From Microcaldota archaeon (GTDB lineage Archaea > Micrarchaeota > Micrarchaeia > Micrarchaeales > CABMGC01), in assembly GCA_028867135.1 (NCBI GenBank), contig JAGWGW010000002.1, forward strand, positions 1-64,000: DNA of 64,000 bases. Reading direction: 5' to 3'. The notes below the pieces were generated by a model, which worked only from the letters and a program-made list of their open reading frames with translations, did not search any database and had not been told where the DNA came from. Shown here one piece after another: positions 30,068-31,934 of the stretch. The position numbers and the translations under genes are program-made. The first letter of the stretch is position 1. The number at the start of each line of letters is the position of its first letter.

Positions 30068-30595
30068 ATGAATAACGTGGAAGACACGCTGAAGGGGAAG
30101 ATACGGGACATTCCCGATTATCCGAAGAAGGGCATACTCTTCAGGGACATAACGCCTTTGCTGAAGGACGGCAGCTCGTTTGCGTTGTGCGTCGACGAGC
30201 TCGCGAAGAGGGTTTCGGACATCGACTTTGATTACGTTGTTGGCATAGAGGCGAGAGGATTCATAATAGGCGCTGCGCTCGCGTACAAGATGAAGAAGGG
30301 GTTCATACCGATAAGAAAACTTGGGAAGCTTCCCTACAGGAGGATAAGCAAGGAGTACGCTCTCGAATACGGCACCGCGACGATAGAGATGCACCATGAC
30401 GCGCTCGCAGGCGGGCAGGAGGCCCTTCTTGTCGACGATCTTCTTGCGACAGGCGGAACTGCCAAGGCCGCGGCTGAGCTGGTAGAGTCGGTAGGAGGGA
30501 AGGTCGCGGGCTTCGCCTTCGTGATAGAGCTTGCCGGGCTGAACGGCAGGAGCATGCTCGGAAAGAGCAGGATAGACACGCTGATGAAATATTGA
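30068..30595 (+). CDS. apt: adenine phosphoribosyltransferase
   Basis: Salvages adenine to AMP with PRPP. 175 residues. Typical Apt order: IPDYPKKGILFRDITPLL at the N-terminus, YVVGIEARGFIIGAALAYK, and the PRPP motif ALLVDDLLATGGTAKAA. All family motifs are conserved. Its stop overlaps the dedA start by 4 bases, so the two are one transcript. Confidence 0.95.
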   Translation: MNNVEDTLKGKIRDIPDYPKKGILFRDITPLLKDGSSFALCVDELAKRVSDIDFDYVVGIEARGFIIGAALAYKMKKGFIPIRKLGKLPYRRISKEYALEYGTATIEMHHDALAGGQEALLVDDLLATGGTAKAAAELVESVGGKVAGFAFVIELAGLNGRSMLGKSRIDTLMKY

Positions 30596-31230
30596 TGCTT
30601 ATGCTATTTGCCTTCTCGATAATACAGGCGATCATTTCGCTGCTCGCAGGCGCGTCTGGCGCGATAAACGCGATAATATCGCAGTACGGCTACATAGGCA
30701 TATTCGTATTGATGACGCTCGAGTCCGCGTCGATGCCGATACCCAGCGAGGTGGTGCTTCCTGCAGTCGGCCATTTCGTATACACGGGGCAGCTGAACAT
30801 CTACATAGCCGTCATTGACGTGCTGCTTGCAAGCCTGGCAGGCTACATGATAGACTACGCCATAGCTTATTACGTAGGAAAGGAGGTGGTGTACAAGCAC
30901 CTGGGACTTTTCCGCATAAAGAAGGAGAGCATAGATGCTTTTGACAGGTGGTTCCTGAGGAACGGCCCCTTTGCGGTCTTCGTCGCAAGACTGCTTCCAG
31001 GGGCAAGAGGACTGATAAACTTTCCTGCTGGTTTCGCGGAGATGCCGCTGAAGAAATTCATATTCTATTCAATGGTAGGCGCATTTATATGGGAGGTGGC
31101 GCTCATAGGCTTCGGGTACTACGCGCTATCCACAGGAAGCCTGACCATAACTGCTGTGGCGATAGCGCTCTTCCTGATAGCGCTGTACCTAATCTACGAC
31201 TATGCGCTGAAGAGGATAAGGAAGGGATAG
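30592..31230 (+). CDS. DedA/SNARE-associated family membrane protein
   Basis: 212 residues with five or six hydrophobic segments. The family signature is present: ESASMPIPSEVVLPAVGHF, then FLRNGPFAVFVARLLPGARG, which carries the Arg/Pro motif of DedA flippases thought to recycle polyprenyl phosphate or phospholipids. It overlaps apt by 4 bases and ends next to the convergent TBP-like gene. A role in returning the polyprenyl carrier would fit with uppS nearby, but that is inference. Confidence 0.88.
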   Translation: MMLMLFAFSIIQAIISLLAGASGAINAIISQYGYIGIFVLMTLESASMPIPSEVVLPAVGHFVYTGQLNIYIAVIDVLLASLAGYMIDYAIAYYVGKEVVYKHLGLFRIKKESIDAFDRWFLRNGPFAVFVARLLPGARGLINFPAGFAEMPLKKFIFYSMVGAFIWEVALIGFGYYALSTGSLTITAVAIALFLIALYLIYDYALKRIRKG

Positions 31231-31557
31231 TCACTTGGTTTCAGGCTCCCTTTTCTCTATTATGTAGTTCTTTACTATCTTTATTACCTGGTCTATCGCC
31301 CTCTTTATGTCAGCCTCTGTCTTCGCACCTGTGCAGATTATCTTGCCGTTCTTGAAAAGAAGCAACGCTGTCTTGGGATCGTGTATCTTGCATATGGCTC
31401 CAGGGAACTGCTCAGGCTCGTAGTCGACGTCGGGCGATGCCTTGGCGATGCCGTAAAGGTCGAGCTCTACCCCCAGATCGGCGCTGGCCACTATATTCTC
31501 GATCTTGAAGACCGGGTGGAGCTCTACCCTTTTTCCGGATTTAGCGTGCTTTGGCAT
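31231..31557 (-). CDS. single-repeat TATA-binding protein (half TBP)
   Basis: 108 residues. After a basic head (MPKHAKSGKRVELHP) the chain is one TBP repeat: FKIENIVASADLGVELDLYG, YEPEQFPGAICKIHDPKTAL, LLFKNGKIICTGAKTEADIK. Ordinary archaeal TBP has two such repeats in about 180 residues; here the stop codon abuts the end of dedA, leaving no room for the second. Both DNA-intercalating Phe positions of a repeat (EQFPG and LLLF) are kept. It could form a homodimer resembling the normal saddle, or be a paralogue beside a normal TBP elsewhere. Start ATG 31557 is chosen because the longer frame runs through the promoter. Confidence 0.9.
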   Translation of the reverse strand: MPKHAKSGKRVELHPVFKIENIVASADLGVELDLYGIAKASPDVDYEPEQFPGAICKIHDPKTALLLFKNGKIICTGAKTEADIKRAIDQVIKIVKNYIIEKREPETK

Positions 31558-31587
31558 TCGAATCACACTACTATTAAAAAGCAAGTG

Positions 31588-31606
31588 TTTATAAAGGTTT
31601 ATAAAG
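31588..31606. promoter_or_regulatory. paired TATA boxes between half-TBP and eL21
   Basis: TTTATAAAG occurs twice, at 31588-31596 and 31598-31606, in the 89-base gap between the divergent half-TBP (start 31557) and eL21 (start 31647). TTTATAAA is self-complementary, so each box can work either way. Distances of 31-50 bases to both starts fit archaeal spacing. Confidence 0.6.
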
Positions 31607-31646
31607 CAAAGAATAAGTGTTTCTATTTTGGTTAGAGGTAGTAGGC

Positions 31647-31934
31647 ATGACTGGAAGGTCGCACGGTCTTTTTGTAGGCAGGACAAGGCAGCTAGCCAGG
31701 CATAACCCTCCTTCAAGGCTGGGGATAAGCAAGCTTCTCAAGAGCTTCGCGATAGGCTCCAGGGTGCTGATAATGCCCAAGGGCAACTTCAACAACATAC
31801 CCCACCCTAGGTACAGGGGAAGAGTAGGCACGGTTGTTGAGAAGAGGGGTGGCGCATACGTAGTTGAAGTGCACACGTCGAAGTCGACCATCAGGAAGCT
31901 TGTTGTCCCGCAGATGCATCTCGACAAGGCATGA
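31647..31934 (+). CDS. rpl21e: large ribosomal subunit protein eL21
   Basis: 95 residues, the normal archaeal length. The signature HPRYRGRVGTVVEKRGGAYVVEV is nearly invariant in eL21, preceded by a basic N-terminus (GRSHGLFVGRTRQLARHNPP). ATG 31647 is chosen; an in-frame upstream ATG at 31617 lies in the promoter/leader. In many archaea eL21 neighbours rpoF and DUF655, which occur 1-2 kb downstream here on the other strand. Confidence 0.95.
   Translation: MTGRSHGLFVGRTRQLARHNPPSRLGISKLLKSFAIGSRVLIMPKGNFNNIPHPRYRGRVGTVVEKRGGAYVVEVHTSKSTIRKLVVPQMHLDKA

Follow-up and report, generated by a model that had tools for sequence, protein, structure and literature searches.

A TATA-binding protein of one repeat as the sole TBP match in a Micrarchaeota genome

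Results

The TBP gene and its surroundings

The window, i.e. the whole analysed stretch of 64,000 nucleotides from assembly GCA_028867135.1, contains on the minus strand, from 31557 to 31231, a TBP gene of 108 codons, as follows from the ORF listing and translation. The first-pass annotation had given this frame exactly, although without the strand; the interval 31231-31557 read on the plus strand contains no TBP. The encoded protein is one complete TBP repeat and a full-length member of PF00352: residues 17-98 match positions 2-85 of the 85-position profile, which is thus covered once, as had been claimed (104.1 bits, cut-off 22.9, E 3.5e-30). Two tandem repeats in one chain, the hallmark of the canonical TBP, are not present, the 108 residues holding one. 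The NCBIfam TATA-box-binding models (182-194 positions) are covered over one half only, the best reaching 98/278 bits, far under the cut-off. When the window was scanned in six frames, a single TBP match was obtained (129.8 bits).

Residues F51 and F68, which we take to be the two DNA-intercalating phenylalanine positions of TBP, are both present, in agreement with the initial reading. The codon of F68 is at 31354..31356, and F51 lies within residues 46-53, YEPEQFPG, encoded at 31399..31422 (both minus strand). By sequence, E47 and E49 of the same stretch are the Glu pair that contacts TFB on the canonical C-terminal lobe; a passage of PMC7221094 ascribes the contact with TFB/TFIIB to the C-lobe glutamates C.L3.2 and C.L3.4.

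The stop codon of the TBP gene adjoins, as previously noted, that of a convergent dedA/VTT gene (30592..31230, plus strand), and on the other side there is a divergent gene of ribosomal protein L21e (31647..31934, plus strand, likely start at 31647); both were identified by ORF and profile match. We compared the locus with those of relatives, the best 80 of 119, which are Micrarchaeota (the labels Marsarchaeota, Mancarchaeum, bacterium or uncultured archaeon occur in a few cases); L21e adjoins the TBP gene in 73 of these 80. A wrong stop codon or assembly, which the first-pass annotation had named as a reason to abandon its claim, is unlikely, because the closest of these relatives (L038) aligns over residues 1-108 with 93% identity, and the codon differences from the same-genus genome G011 are mostly synonymous (69 codons identical, 31 synonymous differences, 8 residue changes).

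The gap between the TBP and L21e genes (31558-31646) contains a palindromic TATA-like box, TTTATAAA, at 31588..31595, inside a 16-base minus-strand motif site that begins 42 bases upstream of the TBP start codon (ATG) and scores 12.5 bits with the motif learned on G011 (top 0.022% of window 16-mers). A second TTTATAAA is found 10 bases further, at 31598..31605. This doubling was considered as a conserved feature and rejected, since only two of 70 gaps have it.

The genome assembly (961 kb, 33 contigs, 93.86% complete) yields only this one match in a PF00352 search at E<=0.001, and a B-type single-repeat paralogue (see below) used as the query for a second repeat recovers only the same gene at E<=10. 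Thus, the earlier statement that no second half is present holds for the whole assembly, and of its two alternatives, the only TBP of the cell or a paralogue, the sole TBP match agrees with the former, in a genome that is 94% complete. The protein has the attributes of a general TBP: there is no competing TBP, TFB is present, and TATA promoters are used, the promoters having been seen in the relatives G011, G015, G301 and G081.

Single-repeat TBPs in Micrarchaeota

PF00352 matches were found in at least 276 of 301 genomes of the phylum. In what follows, f and g are anonymous family and genus labels, the window genome belonging to family f1. The f1 genomes (n = 79) have one match in 41 cases, two in 34 and none in four; among the nearly complete ones (>=90%, n = 19) there are 11 with one match and eight with two. 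The frames listed for f1 are 62-168 aa long, and there is no fusion and no frame with two full repeats among them. Two matches may have different causes: in G012 a single reading frame is accompanied by an incomplete additional stretch where the contig ends, and G060 has two near-equal copies on two contigs. A single match per genome is observed in 30 of 32 genomes of four genera (g1, 2/2; g11, 8/8; g17, 11/12; g24, 9/10), the remaining two having none; G015 and G016, assembled into one to three contigs, have a single match each. The complete chromosome of Ca. Micrarchaeum A_DKE carries two single-repeat genes approximately 630 kb apart and no fused TBP.

In family f2 (45 genomes chosen), 44 genomes have a match, and in 43 all frames are single-repeat; these frames reach 274 aa, with one repeat in those translated (L119, L191). 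On a contig of 8.4 kb (C43, L032), the remaining genome, G254, additionally encodes a TBP of two repeats whose lobes are canonical. This Thermoplasmata-like fused protein in a micrarchaeal bin possibly represents contamination from the host. In the sampled genomes of families f14-f27, all frames are single-repeat, and each genome has one to three of these genes (three in G168 and G172). Two of the G172 genes are located approximately 1 kb apart (C62:704-2215, L226), and the third is on another contig. Divergent single-repeat TBP-like genes scoring 41-42 bits are seen in G174 (C12:19300-19539, L228) and G240 (C3:8789-9031).

A different pattern is observed in families f3, f4, f6, f8, f11 and f12 (n = 61), where 59 genomes have two adjacent repeats in one frame, the exceptions being G090 (at a contig edge) and G136 with a single match each. 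Ten further fused genomes came from a separate sampling of families. In G088 (f3), one repeat lies 137 kb into a contig, and the 3.2-kb locus retains no remnant of a second repeat. Thus, the single-repeat TBP, whose occurrence in related genomes the first-pass annotation had proposed to check, is common in f1, f2 and f14-f27; it is a lineage-wide feature and no local accident. The combination that would have spoken against the claim, a two-repeat TBP elsewhere and the gene absent from relatives, was seen neither in the genome nor in family f1.

The single repeats of f1 and f2 fall into two conserved types, which on the canonical signature positions are N-like (A) and C-like (B). The means on these positions are -24 and -28 for A, and +12 for B in f1. 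On a signature scale where canonical N lobes score -100 and canonical C lobes +79, the window protein scores -23 and is a mosaic, although its TFB-contact stretch is of the C type. There are no fixed differences between A sequences from genomes having A alone (n = 29) and those from genomes with both types (n = 10), compared to 15 between A and B.

The TFB-contact stretch and similarity of the repeats

In the alignment of single repeats (235 rows, 174 distinct), the TFB-contact stretch is YEPEQFPG in 231 rows, YEPDQFPG in two, YEPAQFPG in one, and missing in one, the divergent L228; phenylalanine occupies the F51 position in 234 rows and the F68 position in all 235. The canonical archaeal TBPs (n = 120) have YEPEQFPG in all C lobes and in one N lobe, that of M. 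jannaschii, and the identity between their repeats has a median of 0.47 and a maximum of 0.54. The fused TBPs of the lineage under study (n = 116; 99 database proteins, Diapherotrites-like ones included, and 17 locus proteins, one of which, L032, is canonical) carry the stretch in 115 N lobes, and the identity between the repeats is 0.65 in the median and up to 0.92. In a second Diapherotrites-like set, it is present in 118 of 118 N lobes, at a median identity of 0.57.

Several proteins deviate from these types. Four archaeal TBPs of 272-289 aa (P0122, P0123, P0124, P0242) have three TBP repeats, two of which are 93% identical in P0124. In the fused P0004 and P0007-P0011, the two repeats show few or no differences in the DNA-binding core but differ in the flanks, as expected from copying between repeats.

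TFB and promoters

The genome encodes one TFB with two cyclin repeats, which aligns with Pyrococcus TFB (1d3u_B) at 191 bits, the BRE helix region being matched; the helix region of the second cyclin repeat is nearly identical (TEVTIRNRYRELKKEL vs. TEVTVRNRYKELVEKL in Pyrococcus). By this alignment, the BRE-binding helix of TFB is intact.

Motifs were searched for in regions upstream of crude ORF calls, with shuffled controls. A motif of the AA-N2-TTTATATA type (BRE+TATA) approximately 43 bases before the start was obtained in G011 and G015, both with A alone, in A_DKE, and in the fused G081. The log-likelihoods were 206.5 for G011 (149 regions; six shuffles, 64.0-74.3), 133.3 for G015 (148 regions; 79.3-85.6), 138.3 for A_DKE (140 regions; 86.5-110.2) and 127.3 for G081 (115 regions; 86.1-95.0). 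Sites at -50..-33 number 65 of 88 in G011; the respective fractions are 48/75, 45/93 and 58/82. The positional peak exceeds that of the shuffles in three of the four genomes, the G015 peak (2.26) being inside the range of its shuffles (1.86-2.42). The window itself gives a similar motif, learned from 27 upstream regions only and without a shuffle control. Palindromic symmetry of the TATA box was rejected as a mark of a symmetric TBP, the values being 0.025-0.048 in single-repeat genomes (slightly more symmetric) vs. 0.081 in one fused genome, G081.

History of the repeats

The tree of 151 lobes comprises those of six canonical, 37 fused and 65 single-repeat proteins. A single clade (UFBoot 94), separate from the canonical N and C lobes, unites 136 lobes of the lineage; only L032 and L228 are placed outside it. 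Inside the clade, the N and C lobes of fused proteins pair by group rather than as all N vs. all C. Topology tests on 97 lobes reject a vertical descent of N and C lobes (log-likelihood lower by 220-227, AU p<=1.2e-5). They also reject a single N/C split common to the fused forms (172 lower, p 2e-12). The tree searches did not reach convergence, as the unconstrained tree (-8530) scored worse than two constrained ones (-8516); the rejected trees are 172-227 lower. Either several duplications or recurrent copying of one repeat onto the other would explain this history. The lineage may be sister to canonical C (AU p 0.42) or N (0.66), both trees being kept.

On the RpoB tree of 37 genomes, the state changes between fused and single at least four times (shuffled states: mean 12.1, minimum 8). 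The deep nodes of this tree are weak (21-77). It leaves out G161 and G173, whose genes are cut, and G088, where RpoB has no match; the states were set by family, G156, G159, G160 and G118 being confirmed as fused afterwards.

Structure models

The single repeat P0002 was modelled with pLDDT 87.6, and the model overlays half of human TBP (1cdw_A) at 0.8 A over 81 columns. P0003, encoded on one 1119-base metagenome contig, is a naturally occurring tandem whose two repeats are nearly identical; it was modelled as a full saddle (pLDDT 92.9, TM 0.87 to 1mp9). We use it as a single-chain proxy for the homodimer, although any tandem of TBP-like repeats should fold like TBP on family membership alone. 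The P0003 repeats (91-92% identical) group with the single-repeat L150 (UFBoot 99), and this protein looks like a recent re-fusion.

Discussion

We consider that the gene encodes the sole TBP repeat found in the genome, and that two copies of the protein likely pair as a symmetric saddle, with direction provided by TFB and the BRE; to this reading, in which dimerisation is the inferred step, we assign a probability of about 0.72. The single-repeat protein is most likely a functional symmetric TBP. Two copies would pair edge to edge, and the resulting saddle would bind and bend the TATA box like an ordinary two-repeat TBP. Each copy has both Phe positions and YEPEQFPG, so that TFB could in principle dock on either side of the dimer. 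Orientation would not be given by TBP; it would depend on which side of the TATA box carries the BRE that TFB reads. According to a passage of PMC7289017, the direction of initiation in archaea is set by TFB on the BRE; therefore, a symmetric TBP need not cost polarity. The first-pass annotation had suggested a symmetric homodimer, with which the data agree, and a loss of the polarity of TBP on the TATA box; initiation polarity need not be lost here, given the intact BRE helix of TFB and the BRE+TATA motifs in relatives.

This homodimer reading has to be weighed against three other ones. If an ordinary two-repeat TBP were encoded in the missing 6% of the genome, the gene at 31231-31557 would be a paralogue. 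The fragmentation into 33 contigs, the completeness of 93.86% and the four f1 genomes without any TBP match leave room for that; however, none of the 75 matching f1 genomes has a fused TBP, the complete A_DKE chromosome has single-repeat genes only, and the lone fused TBP of f2 (G254:C43) is canonical, Thermoplasmata-like and may be contamination. We regard such a gap as very unlikely. It is also very unlikely that a monomer suffices, one repeat and TFB holding half a TATA box. TFB can carry much of the work, as in Sulfolobus acidocaldarius, whose TBP, as described in a passage of PMC4041446, does not bend DNA without TFB and BRE. However, the TATA core of the relatives is a full eight bases long, the length expected with a complete saddle. 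In TBP, the first strand pairs across the dyad; the monomer model has this strand interrupted (22-27, 30-32), the tandem model unbroken (12-22). Finally, the place of the lost half could be taken by another protein that has escaped recognition and pairs with the repeat. Two single-repeat genes that have diverged from each other, into an N-like and a C-like type, do occur in many relatives, and an A:B dimer is plausible in genomes with paired genes. As this divergence is what a heterodimer predicts, the homodimer may be an exception within the order. Nevertheless, neither PF00352 nor the B-type query (E<=10) finds a second repeat in the window genome, and A is the same where B is missing. We argue that A, not visibly changed by the loss of B, can therefore act by itself, and regard another partner in this genome as improbable.

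The origin of the single repeat is a separate matter. It could have arisen by plain gene fission, a canonical TBP being cut into an N half (A) and a C half (B), with B then lost by the genus. In line with this, A is N-like and B is C-like, and the tree joining A with canonical N and B with canonical C passes at 5% (AU p 0.0625), the swapped tree being rejected (p 0.003). On the other hand, the best trees, which are better by 25.6 log units, unite A and B, 52 members of the order form a clade (UFBoot 94), and vertical N/C inheritance is rejected over the whole clade (221-227 log units, AU p<=1.2e-5). We consider plain fission doubtful; it concerns the origin and is compatible with a homodimer in this genome. 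We prefer an origin in which the TFB-contact stretch on both repeats would have allowed one repeat to do both jobs, after which the other was dropped; one repeat may have been able to do so because the fused TBPs of Micrarchaeota and Diapherotrites-like archaea have the stretch on both repeats. As there have been changes between the fused and the single form inside the phylum, the single-repeat state is most likely secondary, and its earlier description as resembling the supposed ancestral state is an analogy at best. We give little credence to the reverse possibility, that the Micrarchaeota/Diapherotrites lobe lineage branched before the canonical N/C duplication, the single repeats keeping the ancestral homodimer and the fused forms being later independent duplications. 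If true, these cells never had a classical two-repeat TBP.

TBP is regarded as an invariant two-repeat protein in all archaea and eukaryotes, one that arose in the distant past when a single repeat was duplicated. Here, a living lineage that includes a complete-genome strain, Ca. Micrarchaeum A_DKE, has its general TBP as single repeats, and sister families have it fused. Thus one may ask directly whether a symmetric TBP works, what the source of polarity is, and what the second repeat adds, and the old question of how TBP functioned before its halves were joined becomes testable. With its fused, paired, solitary and apparently re-fused states, the phylum offers several natural replicates in which to study the duplication.

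In the literature searched, no single-lobe TBP is described as the sole TBP of a lineage; overlap with Brindefalk et al. 2013 is possible. Single-lobe versions of TBP in archaea are mentioned by Ravarani et al. 2020 (PMC7221094), citing that study. There, likewise, one lobe is the whole protein, although the passages on them name no organisms and contain neither a copy-number analysis nor a claim of a sole TBP. The TBP-like domain of bacterial RNase HIII is also a single TBP-fold domain in one chain (a weak fold match to 2d0a/3asm, E 0.2-0.3); in contrast to the protein considered here, it is part of a nuclease, and, judging from a passage of PMC7221094, no TFB-contact stretch is expected in it. 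The top PDB sequence matches of the single-repeat TBP are canonical archaeal TBPs (Pyrococcus woesei, 1pcz/1d3u; Methanocaldococcus jannaschii, 2z8u; Sulfolobus acidocaldarius, 1mp9), which share with it the fold of the repeat, the two Phe positions and the stretch that contacts TFB; these consist of two fused repeats with the stretch placed asymmetrically, whereas here there is one repeat only. The TBPs of other Micrarchaeota families and the Diapherotrites-like ones belong to the same lobe lineage and have the stretch on both repeats, but they are still fused, in frames of 186-261 aa, whereas in the genome studied here the repeat is single.
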